This document shows, piece after piece, positions 34,428-43,096 of a stretch of DNA of 64,000 nucleotides. Positions within the stretch are counted from its first letter, which is position 1; every line of letters starts with the position of its first letter. This DNA is from Anaerofustis stercorihominis DSM 17244 (GTDB lineage: Bacteria > Bacillota > Clostridia > Eubacteriales > Anaerofustaceae): positions 1,158,501 to 1,222,500 of the forward strand of contig NZ_DS560019.1 in NCBI RefSeq assembly GCF_000154825.1, in the 5' to 3' direction. Under the pieces are notes generated by a model. It had not been told where the DNA came from and did no database searches. It was given only the letters and a program-made list of their open reading frames with translations. The position numbers and the translations under genes are program-made.

Positions 34428-34985
34428 ATGAGGAAAATTATATTGGCGTCGGCTTCTCCAAGGAGAAAAGAGCTGTTAAAATTACTTGATATAGATTTTG
34501 ACATCATCGTCTCAACGTGTGAAGAAGTGTTTGATGAGGAGTTATCCGTTTATGAAAATTTAAAAAACATTGCTTATTCAAAGGCTTACGATGTTTTTAA
34601 GGATAATGGGGATAACCTCGTCATAGGTGCCGATACCATTGTTTACTTAGAGGGCAGAGTCCTTTTGAAGCCAAAGGATAAGGACGATGCAAGGGGGATG
34701 ATAAAATCTCTGTCTGGTAAAACTCACAGTGTTATAAGCGGTATATCTGTCATAACTAAAGAAAAAAGTTTAAAAACGGCAGTGGAGACCAAAGTAACGT
34801 TCAAAGAACTTAACGACGAAGAAATAGAAGGATACATAAATACAAATGAGCCTTATGACAAAGCCGGCGGATATGCCGTTCAGGGTATTGCGGGGAAATT
34901 CATAAGTAAAATCGAAGGCGATTATTTTAACGTAGTGGGGCTTAGTATAAGCACATTATATGATATGTTAAAAGAGTTTAGGTAG
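34428..34985 (+). CDS. maf: Maf family nucleotide pyrophosphatase
   Basis: Hydrolyses non-canonical or modified NTPs (dTTP/UTP or m7GTP class) to the monophosphate. 185 aa; the phosphate loop ILASASPRRKELL opens the protein, followed by VIGADTIVYLEGRVL and the EPYDKAGGYAVQG block. In Bacillus the relative affects septum formation, and the maf-radC order here is the conserved one. radC begins six bases later. Confidence 0.94.
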   Translation: MRKIILASASPRRKELLKLLDIDFDIIVSTCEEVFDEELSVYENLKNIAYSKAYDVFKDNGDNLVIGADTIVYLEGRVLLKPKDKDDARGMIKSLSGKTHSVISGISVITKEKSLKTAVETKVTFKELNDEEIEGYINTNEPYDKAGGYAVQGIAGKFISKIEGDYFNVVGLSISTLYDMLKEFR

Positions 34986-34991
34986 GATAAG

Positions 34992-35666
34992 ATGAAATCG
35001 GACAAAGAAATACTATCGGGTATTGAAGAAAGATTATATGACGAAGGCGTCGGGGAGCTTACCGACAGTGAGCTGGTTGCATTAATAATAAGAAAAGGGG
35101 ACAGTACGAAAAGCGTACTGGAGCTTAGTAATAATATCATAAGAAGATACGGAGCTTCCCTCAGGGATTTGATAGGTATCACGAGGGAAGAGCTTAAAAA
35201 CGATAATCCGGGGATGACGGATTTAAAATGTGATATGATTTTGGCTTCTTTGGAAATAGGCAGAAGAGCTTATTTGAAAAAAGAGAAGCAAAAGATCATA
35301 ACATGTGTCATGGATATAGTGGACCTGCTTTCCTATGATATGAGCTTTTTGGATGAAGAACATTTTAAGGTCATACTTTTAAACACCAAAAATATGGTTA
35401 TAGAAACGGAACTTATTTCAATAGGGACGATAAACACTTCACTTGTTCATGTAAGGGAAGTATTCAGAAACGCAATAAAGAAAAATGCAAACAGTATAAT
35501 CTTAGCTCATAATCATCCAAGCGGAGATTCCACTCCTTCAATAGAAGACGAACATCTTACCAAAAGGCTTAAAGACGCGGGAGAGCTTATCGGTATAAAG
35601 GTAATTGACCATGTTATCATAGGTAAGGATAATTACTTTTCATTTATGGAAGAAAATATGTTATAA
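34992..35666 (+). CDS. radC: RadC family JAB-domain protein
   Basis: 224 aa. An N-terminal helix-hairpin-helix region (LSDSELVALIIRKG-like; here GELTDSELVALIIRKGDSTK) is followed by the JAB/MPN metalloprotease-like domain with EDEHFKVILLNTKN and the zinc motif AHNHPSGDSTPS. Despite the name, a repair role is not established; the fold suggests a metal-dependent hydrolase on DNA or protein. Second gene after maf. Confidence 0.93.
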   Translation: MKSDKEILSGIEERLYDEGVGELTDSELVALIIRKGDSTKSVLELSNNIIRRYGASLRDLIGITREELKNDNPGMTDLKCDMILASLEIGRRAYLKKEKQKIITCVMDIVDLLSYDMSFLDEEHFKVILLNTKNMVIETELISIGTINTSLVHVREVFRNAIKKNANSIILAHNHPSGDSTPSIEDEHLTKRLKDAGELIGIKVIDHVIIGKDNYFSFMEENML

Positions 35667-35703
35667 TAATATATTATTTATTCTTTTTAATAGGAGTAAA
35701 AAT

Positions 35704-36402
35704 ATGAATGATGATTTTGTAAGTGTAATAATCCCTGCCGCAGGCAGAGGAACAAGGATGGGTAAGAGTATCAATAAGCAGTACATATCTTTAGACAAAA
35801 AAGCAATACTCACTCATACTATCATAGCTTTCGATAAATGTCCTTATATAGATGAGATACTTATTGTCGTTGCCGATAATGAAGAAAAATTATTCAAGGA
35901 TAAGGTGCTCAAAGAATATAGGATAAAAAAGCCTTATAAGCTGGTAGTCGGCGGAAGTACGAGACAGGAATCGGTTTATAATGCGGTAAAGAAAGTTGAT
36001 GAAAGATGTACTATAATATCCGTACATGACGGTGCAAGACCCCTGATTTCCAATAAGGAGATAATAAATACGGTTCTCGGTGCAAAGAAGTACGGAGGAT
36101 GCGTGCTTGGGGTACCTGTAAAGGAAACGGTCAAGAAAGCGGACAGTGACGGATTTGTATCCGCTACGGTAGAAAGAAGTACGCTTTATAATATAAGGAC
36201 ACCTCAGGTTTTTAAGGCTGATATTTTAAAAGAGGCCTATAAAAACGCAGAGGAGAAAGGTATCATCGGGACAGACGATTCATACCTTGTGGAAGAAAAC
36301 GATATAAAAGTAAAGATAATAAAAGGTTCTTATAACAATATAAAAATAACAACACCTGAAGATTTAATCTACGCTCAAGAGATTTTATCAAGCAGAAACT
36401 AG
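35704..36402 (+). CDS. ispD: 2-C-methyl-D-erythritol 4-phosphate cytidylyltransferase
   Basis: Third step of the non-mevalonate isoprenoid pathway: joins CTP and MEP. 232 aa; the nucleotide loop VIIPAAGRGTRMGKSINKQY is canonical, as are VHDGARPLIS and VKETVKKAD. TAGGAG precedes the ATG. Other pathway genes are not in the window. It ends nine bases before the E1-alpha-like gene, so the two could be co-transcribed, although there is no obvious metabolic link. Confidence 0.95.
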   Translation: MNDDFVSVIIPAAGRGTRMGKSINKQYISLDKKAILTHTIIAFDKCPYIDEILIVVADNEEKLFKDKVLKEYRIKKPYKLVVGGSTRQESVYNAVKKVDERCTIISVHDGARPLISNKEIINTVLGAKKYGGCVLGVPVKETVKKADSDGFVSATVERSTLYNIRTPQVFKADILKEAYKNAEEKGIIGTDDSYLVEENDIKVKIIKGSYNNIKITTPEDLIYAQEILSSRN

Positions 36403-36411
36403 GGGGTTACA

Positions 36412-38253
36412 ATGAACATAAACAACCAAAAAATCGTTGAGTTATTTTACAAGATGCTGAAAGTGAGGGTTTTTGAAGAAAAACTGGCGTCTTTATACGA
36501 AGAAGGAAAGATACATACAAACTTATATTTATCCATAGGACAGGAAGCGGTAAGTGCCGGAGCAATGGCTGCCATAAACGGCAAGGATAAAGTTTTTACA
36601 TCACATAGGAACTTTGCTGCTTCAATATGTCTTGAAATGGATATAGAAAAGATGTTTCGTGAGATAATGGGGCTTGACGGCGGTTATACCGACGGGGTAG
36701 CGGGACCGGGATATTTTGCGGATATGAAGGCTGATATTTACGGTGCTTCGGCGGTTCCCGCGGGAAATGTTTCCGTAGCAACGGGTGTTGCCATGGGGGA
36801 AAAGATACATCATACGAACAATATAGTGGTTTCCTTTATCGGTGACGGCGCTGTAAACGAAGGTGTATTTTCCGAAAGCGTCAATATGGCTTCAATGTTT
36901 AAGCTTCCTATCATTTACTTGGTTGAAAACAACGGATATGCCAAAGGACAGAGTTTTTCCAAAACCTCTACTGTCAAAGATATAGCTTCCCGTGCAAGCA
37001 GTTATTCGATACCGGGTATCATAGTTGACGGGAACAATGTTCTCGATATGTACGAAGCAATGCTTACTGCTTCAAGCTATGTAAGAGGAGGAAAAGGTCC
37101 GATAATACTTGAGGCAAAGACATATCGCTTCAGCGGACATCATCTTGCGGATAAGGCCCTTTACAGAAGTTCAAAAGAACTTAGGGCATGGTTCGATAAG
37201 TGCCCGATAAAGCTTCTCAGTAATTATATGCTTCAAAATATGGTTGGTATAGATGATGACCTTCAAATGATGAAAGATACCATTTCGGCTGAAATGGACA
37301 GGATAATAAATAAAATACTAAACGAAAAAGAAATCCCTAAAGAAGAGCTTGAAGAAAAAGAAGAAGAAAAGATTTCAAAGAAGACCCAGATAGAAGAAGA
37401 ATTAAAAGCTTTGCTCGAACAAAAGGAATTTTTAAAACAGGCAGATACTTCGGTCATGATAGAAGAACCTAAACTTAAATCTACTTTTACGGAAAAAGAT
37501 GCGGTTGGGGACAGTGAAGAAGAGATCAGAGCCAACGATAAAGTATTCGATGAAATAAAGAGACTTAAAAATATATTCCCCGAAAGAGACGATACACCTA
37601 AAGAAGAACTTAGTGTAGAGGATATTTTAAGGAACGGTCATACTCATACTTTGATATCTAACACGGACGGCTTTGCGGATGTTGATTTTAGGGATACTAT
37701 AAGAAAGAGACCCGAAAAGGAAGAAAAAAAAGAAGTAGTTACCGAAGAAGAAAAGAGATATATTTCAAATGCGGAAAATGTTCTTGAAAATATATTCAAA
37801 GAAATAGATGAAGAAGAAAAGAAATATACCACTACGGTGGTAAACAGTGATATTTATGATGATATAAGTATGAAGGCAAACATCGCAGACGGTTATGAAA
37901 AAGAAGATGAAGATAAGATCACTTTTGTAAATGCATCTGTTGGAGAAAGTTCAGACTACAATGATTTGAGAAAGCAGAATATTGAAACATTTGACGATTT
38001 TGATTTTGAAAATAGATATGATGATACATATAAAGATGATTTATTCAGTAATTATAATGAAGACGACGATATCATAAAGGAATATATGAAGAGTCTGAAT
38101 ATGAACAGCGAACAGCCTTTTACCGTTTCCACAAGGGGCAGTTCACCTGTTATAGATGTAAGTGACGGCAATGACGTATCTGATTTACATAATATGCTTG
38201 AAATGGAAGATGAAGCGGAACTTGACCTTGATATCTTCGGGGAGGGCAGATAA
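36412..38253 (+). CDS. 2-oxo acid dehydrogenase E1-alpha-like protein with long acidic extension
   Basis: Residues 1 to about 305 are an E1-alpha fold: LYEEGKIHTNLYLSIGQEAV, the thiamine-diphosphate motif GDGAVNEGVF (144-153) ending in VENNGYAKG, and TYRFSGHHLAD. Residues 306-613 are an extra, strongly acidic, low-complexity region (many EEKEEEK, YDDISMKA and FDFENRYDD-like stretches) absent from ordinary 330-370 aa subunits. The segment normally reading R-G-H-G-H is here SHRNFAAS (64-71), so the catalytic HGH histidines appear replaced. The ThDP site looks usable but activity is doubtful. It overlaps the E1-beta-like start (TAATG). Confidence 0.8.
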   Translation: MNINNQKIVELFYKMLKVRVFEEKLASLYEEGKIHTNLYLSIGQEAVSAGAMAAINGKDKVFTSHRNFAASICLEMDIEKMFREIMGLDGGYTDGVAGPGYFADMKADIYGASAVPAGNVSVATGVAMGEKIHHTNNIVVSFIGDGAVNEGVFSESVNMASMFKLPIIYLVENNGYAKGQSFSKTSTVKDIASRASSYSIPGIIVDGNNVLDMYEAMLTASSYVRGGKGPIILEAKTYRFSGHHLADKALYRSSKELRAWFDKCPIKLLSNYMLQNMVGIDDDLQMMKDTISAEMDRIINKILNEKEIPKEELEEKEEEKISKKTQIEEELKALLEQKEFLKQADTSVMIEEPKLKSTFTEKDAVGDSEEEIRANDKVFDEIKRLKNIFPERDDTPKEELSVEDILRNGHTHTLISNTDGFADVDFRDTIRKRPEKEEKKEVVTEEEKRYISNAENVLENIFKEIDEEEKKYTTTVVNSDIYDDISMKANIADGYEKEDEDKITFVNASVGESSDYNDLRKQNIETFDDFDFENRYDDTYKDDLFSNYNEDDDIIKEYMKSLNMNSEQPFTVSTRGSSPVIDVSDGNDVSDLHNMLEMEDEAELDLDIFGEGR

Positions 38254-39233
38254 TGATAGAATTAACTTTTAAACAGGCAATCAAAAATACTCTTTTATAT
38301 GAACTGAGGAAGAATAGGAACAGTGTGTTCGTTTCTCAGGATATAGGAGTATTCGGCGGAGAATACAAAGTAAGCAAAGGATTTGACGTACAGATACCGG
38401 AAGAGAGGATAATCGAAGTTCCCGTAAGCGAGAATGCTTATATAGGCTCAAGCGTAGGGCTTAGTTTGAATGGATTCAACGTAATAACGGAGATACCGGG
38501 GACGAAGTTTTTGATAAGGTCTCTGGATCCGATAATAAACTATGCTTCGAAGCTTAAAGCTTTTGGGACTAAAGTTCCGGGGAGTCTTCTTATAAGATGT
38601 CCGATAGGGTATACTCCTTACTCCAGTGTGCAGGATAACGAATCTGTGGAGGCTGTAATGGCGCATTTTCCGGGTATAAAAGTGGTTTATCCATCGACAC
38701 CGAAGGACGCTATAGGTCTTATGCGAAGCGCATTTTCAGAACATGATCCGGTGATATTCTTCGAAAATAAGAATTTATATAATGTAAAAGGCGAAATAAG
38801 TGAAAAGTCGGAGGAAAAGATACCTCTAGGGAAAGCCAATATCATAAGAGAAGGAAGCGACATCACCGTCATAACCTACGGAAGCATGGTAAAAGAAGCA
38901 ATGAAGGCCAGCGACGTAGCCTATATGAGTGATGTAAAAGTAGAGGTAATAGATTTAAGGACAATAAAACCCATCGACAGTGAGACTATAATAAAATCCG
39001 TTAAGAAGACGGGAAGAGCCATTGTAGTTTACGAAGGTTATAAGACATGCTCCGTTGGAAGCGAGATAGCAAGTATAATAGTTGAAAGCGAAGCTTTTGA
39101 TTATCTTGAAGCTCCGGTAGCGAGGATGTGCAGTGATGATAATTTCACACCTTTCAATCCTATAAAGGCTAAAGAAGTACTGCCGAGTTCCGGCAAACTT
39201 TTGGAAAAAATAATGCAGTTGGTTGAATATTAA
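38253..39233 (+). CDS. 2-oxo acid dehydrogenase E1-beta-like protein
   Basis: 326 aa, normal E1-beta length, co-linear with AcoB/PdhB: FVSQDIGVFGGEYKVSKGF, then EVPVSENAYIGSSVGLSLNG with the conserved glutamate E60, VVYPSTPKDAIGLM and VEVIDLRTIKPIDSETI. The family's conserved H-S-Q-S active-site histidine falls in SSVQDNESVEA, where D128 replaces it. Together with the partner changes this suggests altered or lost decarboxylase chemistry. It is translationally coupled to the E1-alpha-like gene and 17 bases ahead of the E2-like gene. Confidence 0.82.
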   Translation: MIELTFKQAIKNTLLYELRKNRNSVFVSQDIGVFGGEYKVSKGFDVQIPEERIIEVPVSENAYIGSSVGLSLNGFNVITEIPGTKFLIRSLDPIINYASKLKAFGTKVPGSLLIRCPIGYTPYSSVQDNESVEAVMAHFPGIKVVYPSTPKDAIGLMRSAFSEHDPVIFFENKNLYNVKGEISEKSEEKIPLGKANIIREGSDITVITYGSMVKEAMKASDVAYMSDVKVEVIDLRTIKPIDSETIIKSVKKTGRAIVVYEGYKTCSVGSEIASIIVESEAFDYLEAPVARMCSDDNFTPFNPIKAKEVLPSSGKLLEKIMQLVEY

Positions 39234-39250
39234 GACGAAAGGAGAATTTC

Positions 39251-40594
39251 ATGACAAACTTAGGGAATTCCAAACAAAAAGCAAGCCCCGCCACAAGAAA
39301 GCTGGCTAAGGCATTAGGCATAGATTTATCGCAAATAGAAGGAAGCGGCGAAAACGGACGTATCGAAGCCGCTGATTTAGAGCGTTATTTAAATGACAGA
39401 AAGAGACTTGAAGAAAATAACATAAATAATATATCTATAAAATCAAGCAAGGACGACGAAGAATTGAAGATATTGGAACAAAGGATCAATATGATAAATG
39501 ATGAAGTCGAAGATAAGATAGCCGATAATACGAAGATATATTCAAGCAGTGAGACCGATGAAGAAATGGAGGAGTTGAATAATGCCGACTCCGATATCAT
39601 TCAGTTTATGATAAAACATCAAAATGATATTTATGATGAAGATAATTCTTCAAAGGATATCATCGTGAATTATGACCAGACATCAAGTATCATTACAAGC
39701 GAAGTAAAAGAAGACGCTGAAGATAAAGAAGAAAACAAAGAAATAACCGATACAAAGGATACGATAGAAAAGATGAACAAGGCAGAGAATGCAAAAGAAG
39801 CATATACTCCGGTCATCGAAGAAGTCGTATCCAAGGAATACGATGATGAAGGAAACGAGATACCGGTCGTTCCTGTTGAAAACAGTGTTACTCATCAGGT
39901 CATAGTTCCTGTAGAACATTCCGAGATAGCGGAAGAATATCCGGACACGGAAAGGGAAGTAAATGAGAGCTACGGGAAAAGAGTGGTTATCACTTTAAAT
40001 GATGATACCAGCAGAAGCGTAGTTATCAATAAAGACGGAAAAAGCAGTGAAGAAAAAACTGTAAGCGAACAAAATCAGTTGGTCATAGAGACTCATACTC
40101 ATAACGTGGTTACTATGGGTATAAAAGCGAGCCTTAACCTCGTAAAGGAAATGCTTGTTTCCTACAGCGATCTAAGCGAGAGAAAGATTTTTAATACCGT
40201 GGTAAAATCCATAGTTTTCGCTTTGGAAAAAAATAAAATAGCTTCCTTTAAGGGAGATGTTGCGATATATAAGTATGACGGTGAAGAAGGCTTTACAGGC
40301 AGAAAGCTGAGCGGTATCAACGAACTTACCGTAAGTCAGATGGATAAGAGAATGAAATACATAATCGAAGGGGAGGATATCGATTTTAGGATAACCGATA
40401 TAAGCCCGCTTAATATCGATTATTATTATCCGAAAGCATGTGAAGACAAAGTCGATATAACGGTTCTCATTCAGGACGAATATGTAAAAGTATACTTGAG
40501 TGCATGCGAAGATTTGATGGATTTCAACGAATGTGCGAAAGTCCTTTCAAATATCAAATCAGTGATAAGCAATCCAAGCCTTATGCTTGTATAA
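39251..40594 (+). CDS. E2-like protein: peripheral-subunit-binding domain plus degenerate acyltransferase domain
   Basis: 447 aa. There is no lipoyl domain: the protein opens directly with an E1/E3-binding domain (ASPATRKLAKALGIDLSQIE, residues 11-47). An acidic, low-complexity linker of about 220 residues follows. The last 160 residues resemble the E2 catalytic domain (FNTVVKSIVFALEKNK ... VLSNIKSVISNPSLMLV). The catalytic H-R-x-x-x-D-G motif aligns with EDLMDF, giving Glu420 for His while Asp424 remains. It therefore cannot carry acyl groups in the usual way. It is the last gene of the trio; no E3 gene follows. Confidence 0.75.
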   Translation: MTNLGNSKQKASPATRKLAKALGIDLSQIEGSGENGRIEAADLERYLNDRKRLEENNINNISIKSSKDDEELKILEQRINMINDEVEDKIADNTKIYSSSETDEEMEELNNADSDIIQFMIKHQNDIYDEDNSSKDIIVNYDQTSSIITSEVKEDAEDKEENKEITDTKDTIEKMNKAENAKEAYTPVIEEVVSKEYDDEGNEIPVVPVENSVTHQVIVPVEHSEIAEEYPDTEREVNESYGKRVVITLNDDTSRSVVINKDGKSSEEKTVSEQNQLVIETHTHNVVTMGIKASLNLVKEMLVSYSDLSERKIFNTVVKSIVFALEKNKIASFKGDVAIYKYDGEEGFTGRKLSGINELTVSQMDKRMKYIIEGEDIDFRITDISPLNIDYYYPKACEDKVDITVLIQDEYVKVYLSACEDLMDFNECAKVLSNIKSVISNPSLMLV

Positions 40595-40595
40595 T

Positions 40596-40622
40596 AAAAA
40601 GACACCTTATGGTGTCTTTTTA
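40596..40622 (+). terminator. Intrinsic terminator of the E1/E2-like operon
   Basis: AAAAGACACC pairs with GGTGTCTTTT around TTAT, followed by T. Confidence 0.92.
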
Positions 40623-41008: not shown

Positions 41009-43096
41009 ATGAAAAGTAAGAGACTTTTAGCGGTAATGCTGAGCGGGTTTATGGTGTTTACAAGCATGACACCTGTGTTTACCGAAGAAATAAAAAGTGA
41101 AAACACGAATGACAATTCTGTAGTAAGTGAAGAACAAAAGGGAAATGACGTAAATAACAGTGAGGAAGTTAAAGATAATGAAGAAGCTGTTATAACAGAT
41201 AAAGATAATGAACATAAAACAGCACAAGATGAAAAGAAAGCGGAAGAAAGTACTTCTTTAAATGAGACTTCTAAAACGGTTAAGTCGACTTCAAAGACAG
41301 CTTTATCTTCATCTAAAACAACAAGAGATGTTTTAGAAAGTAAAATAGACGAAACGACAGGGCTTGAATTCAGCTATGACAGCGATACGAATGAAGCGAC
41401 CATTACAGGGCTTGGTAGCTTTCCTGCCGACGACGTTTTGACTGTTACGACTTTTGCCATTCCGAGTAAGGTAAAGACTTCGGATACCGGAGAATTGACC
41501 GTAACTGCTGTAGGCGGGGAAGCTTTCCTTAGCGAAGATTTTGGTGTTGATTATGACTGTACATTAATAATTCCATCAAGCATTGAATCGATAGGGAAAA
41601 AGGCATTTAGCAGTTGTTACTTTGCTAAATTGGAATTTGAAGAAGGAAGTAACCTTACGACTATAGGAGAAGATGCATTTAAGGCAGGAAATTACCTTGA
41701 AAACTTAATTATACCTAAGAGTGTAGTAAGTATTGAAATGGGCGCATTTTATGACGCAGGGGTAAGTTCTTTAACTTTTGAAGAAGGCAGTAAATTAGAA
41801 AGCATAAAAGCAGAGGCTTTTAGAAGTAATAATAACCTTGCAGGTAATTTGACTATTCCTAAAAATGTGACTTATTTGGGATTTTGTATGTTTACCAATT
41901 GTAGAAAACTCGAAAGCATTACATTCGAAGAGGGGATAAACCTTGAAACACTGGAAATTTCTGTATTCGACTCATTAGATAGTTTGAAAGAAATCGTTAT
42001 CCCGAAATCCGTGAAAACCATGAAAAGCAATGTGTTTAGTAGTTGTGACAATTTATCTTCAATTATTTTTGAATAAGGGTCTGCTTTGGAAACTTTAGAA
42101 AGAGGTGCTTTAAAATATTTGCCTGCTTTGGAAGAAATTATCATACCCGAAAAAGTAACTTCTGTAGGAGATGCATGTTTTCAAAACTGTACTAATCTTA
42201 AAAAGATCGTATTTATGGGGGCAAATGCGACTATAGGGACGGATGTGTTCAAAAATACTTCGTCGGATTTGGCAATATACGCGCATACCGGCAAAGACGG
42301 TTCTTTAATTCCTATTTATACATATTTTGAAGCACAGAAAGCTGCCAACCCTTCATGGACATTTGGAAGCATATGTCATGGTCCCGATGAAGTAGCTGGA
42401 AGTAAAGTCGAACCAACATGCGGCGTTGACGGAACAATTTCATTTGAACCCGGGAACTGTACCTGCGGTAATGTATTGACCGAAAGAGTTACTTTTGCTC
42501 TTCCCGCAACCCAAAAGCATACTTTTGATAAAACCGTTATAAGTAAAGAAGCTACATGTACGGTCAAGGGAAGCAAACACAGAGAATGCAGTGTATGCGG
42601 GGATAAAGAAGACGGTTCCGATGTAGATATACCAATGCTTGCTCATACTTATGCAGAAATAATAGACACACCTGCAACATGTACTGAAGAGGGAAGTAAG
42701 CATTCAGAGTGCAGTGTTTGTAACACTAAAAAAGAAAATTCAGATGAGAAAATAGGAGTTTTACCTCATACTTTTGATAAAGAAGTGGTAGACAAGGAAG
42801 CTACATATACAGAAGAAGGAAGTAAGCATACAGAGTGCAGCGTCTGCGGTACTAAAAAAGAAGGTTCAGATGTCGTTATCCCAAAGATCGTAAAAGAAGA
42901 AGATAAGAATAATAATAACAATGGCGACTCAACATCAAACGGAAGTACCGTGACAAAGACAGGAAGTGATAAAACAGCGGTAAATAATCCTCAGACTTCT
43001 GATGAAATGAATATGGTTCTTTACGTCCTATTGGGACTTGTATCTTTGGGAGCAGTGGGTACCGTAGGATATAAACTTAAAAAGAGGAATATCTAA
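41009..43096 (+). pseudogene. BspA-like leucine-rich-repeat surface protein, interrupted by one in-frame stop
   Basis: A sortase-anchored cell-wall protein of about 695 codons. It has a signal peptide (LLAVMLSGFMVFTSMTPVFT), an S/T/E-rich stretch, and several BspA-type LRR_5 repeats (TLIIPSSIESIGKKAFSSC and similar). Three copies of a repeat of about 45 aa with CSVC/CxxC follow, then a linker, NPQTSD, one membrane helix and KKR. The frame is cut by TAA at 42074-42076 inside a repeat. Reading FE(stop)GSALETLE where sister repeats have FEEGSKLES, it is a single GAA-to-TAA change, and the frame stays open on both sides. Recent inactivation, phase-type variation or a sequence error are possible. 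AGGGGAG precedes the ATG. Confidence 0.85.

Follow-up and report, generated by a model that had tools for sequence, protein, structure and literature searches.

Three altered dehydrogenase-like genes next to ispD

The stretch of DNA analyzed here, referred to as the window, comprises 64,000 nucleotides of Anaerofustis stercorihominis DSM 17244 (NCBI RefSeq assembly GCF_000154825.1, contig NZ_DS560019.1, positions 1,158,501 to 1,222,500 of the forward strand). It carries three consecutive genes resembling those for the E1-alpha, E1-beta and E2 subunits of 2-oxo-acid dehydrogenase complexes, and the changes described below suggest that this triplet has been turned to a mostly non-catalytic use. 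The three genes belong to a run of six close co-directional genes at 34428-40594 (maf-like, radC, ispD, E1-alpha-like, E1-beta-like and E2-like), and have reading frames of 613 aa (36412-38253), 326 aa (38253-39233) and 447 aa (39251-40594). The E1-alpha-like gene begins 9 nt after the end of ispD and overlaps the E1-beta-like gene by 1 nt, and a gap of 17 nt precedes the E2-like gene. An earlier note, made from the sequence alone, had described the genes as a translationally linked set with the three subunit types; the resemblance is borne out by Pfam matches (E1_dh, Transket_pyr, Transketolase_C, E3_binding), the tight coupling by the overlap, the gap and the open frames. The two E1-like chains can each be matched to the E1 family along their length, by sequence or by model.

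The note had also proposed that the core chemistry was lost, and its residue claims hold when the genome's own intact paralogue is used for comparison. S64-HRNFAA-S71 of the E1-alpha-like protein occupies the place of THRGHGHC, Q127-D128-N-E-S of the E1-beta-like protein replaces QHSQC, and Glu420 of the E2-like protein aligns with the His of DHRVLDG, in an alignment that is weak. The thiamine diphosphate (ThDP) motif, GDG...ENN, is retained as the note stated, and so is the subunit-binding domain, which scores over the Pfam cut-off. A lipoyl domain and an adjacent E3 gene are indeed both absent, but the missing lipoyl domain is no evidence of lost chemistry and we have dropped it as an argument, because the intact E2 encoded on contig C1 of this genome likewise lacks one. 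Beyond the note, three further losses are found in the E1-alpha-like protein (Tyr39 for His, Tyr101 for the His of GGSMH and Phe163 for Trp), together with two retained residues, His243 of E1-alpha and Glu60 of E1-beta, and an acidic E1-alpha tail of 300 residues.

Residues lost and kept in the E1-like chains

The same positions were compared across the 13 genomes of the family (G000 to G012, G000 being the window genome), with intact rows taken from the fetched loci (51 for E1-alpha and 52 for E1-beta, three pseudo-protein copies and three split-transketolase subunits being removed from the intact E1-beta set). The E1-alpha-like gene of G012 is cut by a contig end. All 51 intact E1-alpha rows have His39, His68 and His101, the latter in GGSMH, whereas the 13 triplet copies keep the first in G006 only and the other two in none; Ser99-Met100-His101 is found in 0 of 13 and Trp163 in 0 of 12. 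His128 of E1-beta is present in 52/52 intact rows versus 0/13 triplet copies. Glu60 of E1-beta, also found in 52/52 intact rows, remains in five of the 13 triplet copies, window included, and is replaced in the others by Ser (2), Asp (2), Ile (2), Lys (1) or Gly (1). His243 of E1-alpha (YRxxGH) is presumably the counterpart of G. stearothermophilus His271-alpha; it is kept in 5 of 12 triplet copies, again with the window among them, against 50 of 51 intact rows.

Other positions are retained throughout or nearly so (Arg66 in 13/13, Asp145 in 11/12, Asn173 in 12/12, Asn174 in 11/12), and unchanged GDG and ENN occur together in nine of the 12 full copies, including that of the window, the altered forms being GEG in G002, GDS in G010 and ENS in G007. 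Among the E1-alpha columns that are at least 95% conserved in intact copies (n = 55), 11 are lost (in one of these, only two triplet rows have a residue), 27 kept and 17 mixed; the same test for E1-beta (n = 74) gives 22 lost, 10 kept and 42 mixed. Under parsimony, the Glu60 state needs 2 changes on the E1-alpha tree, and the differing replacements seen in the alignment suggest several independent losses. A new active-site cluster was considered and set aside: the residues invariant in the triplet family look, by eye, like residues of the general E1 fold and of the ThDP motif.

In PMC2663715, the histidine at 128-beta is described as conserved in all known E1s, as contacting pyruvate and as probably acting in reductive acetylation; its Asn and Gln variants have less than 5% of the complex activity, the Gln variant decarboxylating nearly normally, and Glu59-beta activates ThDP, the ThDP-activating glutamate being termed invariant. 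By this measure, the window proteins should be unable to run the full reaction. Judging from the alignments, the members lacking Glu60 and His243 cannot activate ThDP in the usual way, and a partial ThDP reaction would be conceivable in the subset that keeps both.

Subfamily models set the window protein apart from the intact paralogue for one of the two E1 chains. Against NF006667 (pyruvate dehydrogenase (PDH) E1-beta subfamily, cut-off 321 bits), the window E1-beta scores 273.7, below the cut-off, and the intact paralogue 391.8, above it. TIGR03182 (E1-alpha, cut-off 393.85) cannot separate the window E1-alpha (276.4) from the intact paralogue (331.1), because both fall below its cut-off. 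The long E1-alpha tail is found, among the 12 full copies, only in the three Anaerofustis genomes and in G009. At codon 145 of the G002 E1-alpha-like gene (L047), GAG (Glu) stands for GAC (Asp) in GDG, in a domain otherwise 99% identical to that of the window.

The E2-like protein

All 13 E2-like proteins of the family have a subunit-binding domain that scores over the Pfam cut-off, and no Pfam match to a lipoyl or a catalytic domain was found in these 13 proteins at E 0.01. The E2-like gene of G009 is spread over two contigs. For the C-terminal 172 residues, a model predicted from 10 sequences reached a pLDDT (predicted local distance difference test) of 86.8 and a pTM (predicted template modeling score) of 0.86, and superseded a first model of poor quality (pLDDT 58.1). 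The 50 Foldseek matches listed are E2 cores or models containing one, except one with an uninformative title. With VIA-align, the predicted model superposes on the pig E2 core 9j1w_A with a Z of 17.0 (root-mean-square deviation 2.7, 162 aligned residues, 12% identity) and on the E2-similar protein E3BP (6h60) with a Z of 16.5. None of the 10 aligned E2-like rows shows a histidine near the DHRxxDG position when read by eye.

Asp and Glu make up 21-29% of the linker between the two domains in seven genomes, against 16-17% in G005 and G011 (full linkers only). In these last two genomes the linker is not acidic in character and carries repeated, probably helical units containing both Trp and Lys (L069:13457-14950, L072:165-1745). 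The linkers of G007 and G012 contain CGCGHHH-type stretches that look metal-binding (L128:2802-4025, L130:1238-2419).

Distribution, origin and selection

The earlier note had called for a search for co-conserved triplets in related genomes and for dN/dS (the ratio of nonsynonymous to synonymous substitution rates). The triplet is present in 13/13 family genomes, and we regard it as more than a chance arrangement because of this conservation. The E1-alpha-like domain profile gives 368-516 bits in 11 of the 13, compared with a best score of 330.5 among the other 54 genomes of the order, and of 391 genomes sampled from the class only four exceed 340 bits, all within the family. No further triplet came out of the profile search of these 54 and 391 genomes, in which a copy as divergent as the one in G007 could be masked by ordinary scores: for G007 (321 bits, no higher than ordinary E1s) and for G012, where the gene is in pieces, the triplet was confirmed by reading the loci. 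In nine of the 13 genomes (G000, G001, G002, G004, G007, G008, G009, G010, G012) ispD lies directly upstream, at a distance of -20 to +16 nt.

In the E1-alpha tree, from which the partial G012 sequence was left out, the 12 full triplet copies form one side of a branch with support of 100/99, found in all of 200 bootstrap trees. They do not branch from among the five intact copies of the family, a placement that calls for some caution given the long branches. The E1-beta tree was less tidy; the triplet rows needed 5 changes, due in part to six wrong rows in the intact set and to long branches. The E1-beta-like proteins of the ten genomes outside the genus are 24-46% identical to that of the window.

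Between G000 and G002, dN/dS is 0.017 for the E1-alpha domain, 0.012 for E1-beta, 0.042 for the acyltransferase-like domain, 0.057 for the linker and 0.074 for the E1-alpha tail, and the upstream genes give 0.045 (ispD), 0.039 (radC) and 0.104 (maf). The E1 domains are thus under very strong selection. Relative to G001, the altered E1-alpha domain has a value of 0.019 and the intact E1 genes have 0.033 and 0.045, values that are less firm since synonymous sites are near or at saturation for most genes. The frames are open in all copies read, contig ends aside.

Taken together, the alteration of three chains at once, the presence of the genes in 13/13 family genomes, the single clade of 12 copies and the low dN/dS of the E1 domains give good support to the claim of the earlier note that the triplet was repurposed rather than left to decay.

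Comparison with intact complexes and known systems

The window genome also encodes an intact operon on contig C1 (L050 6952-12006), with E1-alpha, E1-beta and an E2 without lipoyl domain followed by an E3 that bears two lipoyl domains (L050:9967-12006). The triplet has the same three-gene plan and likewise an E2 without lipoyl domain; unlike it, the C1 operon keeps THRGHGH, GGSMH, QHSQ and DHRVLDG, and its lipoyl-bearing E3 follows. In a second intact-looking complex, on C5 (L132:11161-16271), the E1 is a fused protein of 820 aa, an E3 is present and the E2 bears a lipoyl domain; its genes adjoin others that read as purine biosynthesis. Both complexes look able to carry out ordinary chemistry.

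With the catalytic 2-oxo-acid dehydrogenase complexes in general, the triplet shares the gene order, the folds (by profile and by model), the subunit-binding domain and the ThDP-magnesium motif. It differs from them in that four invariant histidines are lost, the activating glutamate is gone in 8/13 copies, DHRxxDG is absent, the acyltransferase domain is shorter (172 modeled residues versus roughly 210-245 in the matched chains), the linkers are very long and the operon holds neither a lipoyl domain nor an E3. By these residue tests, the triplet falls outside the catalytic 2-oxo-acid dehydrogenases.

E3BP, or protein X of the eukaryotic PDH complex, carries a lipoyl domain. The triplet is bacterial, has no such domain and keeps two altered E1 chains as well. 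The likeness concerns the E2 part only: an E2-like protein with a subunit-binding domain and a non-catalytic acyltransferase fold. E3BP is described in PMC9681731 as non-catalytic and similar to E2. Single inactive subunits of this kind are already known. A case in which the E2 and the two E1 chains have all changed and then been maintained under strong selection did not come up in the open-licence literature that was searched, where the only listings obtained were unrelated.

The MEP pathway context

The recurrent position after ispD draws attention to the methylerythritol phosphate (MEP) pathway of isoprenoid precursor synthesis. DXS was over the cut-off in 0/13 family genomes; it is also below the cut-off in 32 of the 54 other genomes of the order, or 45/67 for the order overall, some of these genomes being incomplete. 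In the DXS search, the E1-beta-like protein of the window scored 67.8 bits and the E1-alpha-like protein 25.8. According to PMC10663253, 181 of 4,400 species lack only Dxs, and its replacement is given as unknown in most of them. Of the nine family genomes tested, 8 have IspF and 8 have IspH, and the three Anaerofustis genomes have both. Type-I DXR was found in G003, G005 and G006 among these nine genomes and in none of Anaerofustis. The DXR gap can be filled, since type-II DXR domains (PF21135) occur in 7/13 family genomes, with two copies per Anaerofustis genome (G000:C4:110404 and G000:C5:210558). Those of G004 (C220) and G010 (C11) lie within about 1 kb of other, non-triplet E1 genes.

The loss of DXS is not tied to the triplet, because the 32 genomes of the order outside the family that are also below the cut-off show no triplet by profile. 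For this reason, and with Glu60 lost in 8/13 copies, the triplet is unlikely to be a DXS substitute for the whole family, an idea that survives within the active-enzyme alternative weighed below.

Interpretation and alternatives

We think it probable, by a modest measure, that the triplet encodes a mostly non-catalytic 2-oxo-acid dehydrogenase-like assembly that has been repurposed as a scaffold or regulator. We infer that the two E1-like chains would pair into an alpha2-beta2 unit, that this unit would dock on the subunit-binding domain of the E2-like protein, and that long, mostly acidic arms would carry it on an E2-like oligomeric core. The product would be of large size and have a scaffolding or regulatory role, Mg-ThDP perhaps persisting in it as a structural or sensing ligand, and the assembly would be unable to pass an acyl group to lipoate and coenzyme A. 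The frequent site after ispD hints at a function close to the MEP pathway, for example in holding or regulating IspD, the link being a genomic one. A more specific version, to which we give only a minor chance, is that a single conversion in the ancestor of the family turned the whole architecture, E2 and both E1 chains, into a cofactor-holding, largely silent assembly serving isoprenoid precursor synthesis, for example by docking or regulating IspD, with DXS already lacking. If the scaffold or regulator reading is true, the family would offer a natural test of which parts of E1 and E2 serve assembly and which catalysis, and of whether ThDP persists as a ligand, and the ispD linkage would be a concrete starting place for the function.

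Several findings weigh against this reading. Adjacency to ispD is not seen in four of the 13 genomes (G003, G005, G006, G011), the contig of G003 beginning 893 nt before the triplet, and neither the linker sequence nor the E1-alpha tail is conserved between genera. The window proteins themselves keep Glu60, His243, GDG and ENN. Glu60 and His243 are kept jointly in five of the 12 full copies (G000, G001, G002, G006, G009) and lost jointly in seven, which looks, at the level of the alignment, as if a residual ThDP function had been kept in one subset. Finally, G006 keeps His39 and has a histidine one place before position 128 of E1-beta.

The last of these would fit an ordinary dehydrogenase with its histidines at shifted positions, one of the outcomes by which the earlier note would have been overturned. 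We hold this to be extremely improbable: no shifted histidine was seen on reading the window proteins, the alignment with 51 and 52 intact relatives gives none at E1-alpha 68 and 101 or E1-beta 128 in any of the 13 genomes, and DHRxxDG is absent from the E2-like protein. A decaying duplicate would account for the lost catalytic residues and for the quick divergence of the proteins between genera, as in the E1-beta identities given above; it is nevertheless very improbable, given open frames, retention in every family genome and E1-domain dN/dS values of 0.012-0.017, below those of ispD, radC and maf. The joint retention of Glu60 and His243, with GDG and ENN in the window, speaks for a working ThDP enzyme whose chemistry has changed, at least where both residues are present, for example a carboligase making deoxyxylulose phosphate (DXP) in place of DXS. 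Adjacency to ispD in 9/13 genomes and the combination, in the three Anaerofustis genomes, of DXS below the cut-off with IspF, IspH and the type-II DXR domain would fit such an enzyme. There is also a precedent in E. coli, where aceE mutants can supply DXP and replace DXS, according to PMC3424233; those AceE variants resemble the triplet in being E1-type proteins with altered residues in a DXS-lacking context, but they are single substitutions in working enzymes, whereas the triplet has many changes and has lost the glutamate in most members. We consider this alternative unlikely, as Ser, Asp, Ile, Lys or Gly stands for Glu60 in 8/13 copies, G002 has Glu60 but GEG, G010 and G007 have GDS and ENS, and DXS is below the cut-off in triplet-less genomes too. 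Since only 5/13 copies have Glu60, and G002, G010 and G007 depart from GDG or ENN, new ThDP chemistry is, across the family, the least supported of the three functions put forward in the earlier note (regulator, scaffold, new ThDP chemistry), of which the first two are likelier.

Recruitment to another complex is the remaining possibility, and a rather unlikely one in our estimation: by analogy with E3BP in mitochondria, the altered subunits, without forming a particle of their own, could be built into one of the cell's intact dehydrogenases as non-catalytic recruiting, diluting or inhibiting subunits. The retention of the subunit-binding domain and of the acyltransferase fold with loss of the catalytic motif would be in agreement with this, as would the rank of E3BP among the best structural matches and the intact E1-E2-E3 set in the genome. 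However, the E1-like partners, needless for recruitment of the E3BP type, are kept as well, and the triplet genes lie apart from the intact operons.

Feature positions and other observations in the window

Table 1. Positions in the window of the triplet, its residues of interest and the neighboring genes.
Feature	Position	Strand	Basis
maf-like gene, first upstream co-directional gene	34428..34985	+	Open reading frame, named by reading; gene order the same in G001 and G002
radC	34992..35666	+	Pfam RadC 1.4e-45
ispD, immediately 5' of the triplet	35704..36402	+	TIGR00453, 235.1 bits vs cut-off 181.3
E1-alpha-like domain, residues 1-313	36412..37350	+	Pfam E1_dh 4.9e-59; family profile to human PDHA 6cer_A 1.1e-56
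E1-alpha Tyr39, replacing His of intact E1-alpha	36526..36528	+	Alignment
SHRNFAAS of E1-alpha, Phe68 replacing His	36601..36624	+	Alignment
E1-alpha Tyr101, replacing His of GGSMH	36712..36714	+	Alignment
E1-alpha Asp145 of GDG, ThDP-magnesium motif	36844..36846	+	Alignment
E1-alpha Asn173-Asn174 of ENN, second half of ThDP-magnesium motif	36928..36933	+	Alignment
E1-alpha His243, retained	37138..37140	+	Alignment
Acidic, probably disordered E1-alpha tail (29% Asp+Glu)	37351..38250	+	Composition
E1-beta-like protein	38253..39233	+	Pfam Transket_pyr 3.3e-23, Transketolase_C 6.6e-36; family profile to 3duf_B 6.3e-80
E1-beta Glu60, ThDP-activating glutamate, retained	38430..38432	+	Alignment
E1-beta Asp128, replacing His of intact E1-beta	38634..38636	+	Alignment; matched to G. 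stearothermophilus His128-beta via profile alignment
E2-like protein without lipoyl domain	39251..40594	+	Pfam: E3_binding only
Peripheral subunit-binding domain, E2-like residues 10-44	39278..39382	+	Pfam E3_binding 1.2e-13, 51.4 bits vs cut-off 23.7
Acidic linker, E2-like residues 47-275 (27% Asp+Glu)	39389..40075	+	Composition
Acyltransferase-fold domain without DHRxxDG	40076..40591	+	Predicted model and structure match; Glu420 (40508-40510) weakly aligned with the catalytic His
Probable terminator hairpin 3' of the E2-like gene	40596..40621	+	Read by eye; not reported by the scan

A promoter scan of the window gave 31 sites versus 24.7 (standard deviation 4.7) in shuffled sequences and was not used. 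On the 3' side of the E2-like gene, three genomes carry a protein of 163-170 aa with one likely membrane segment (L068:5360-5854, L127:5417-5908, L130:2422-2934). In the window, the frames 41009-42076 and 42086-43096, which share a phase, have the look of a single leucine-rich surface protein interrupted by an in-frame stop.

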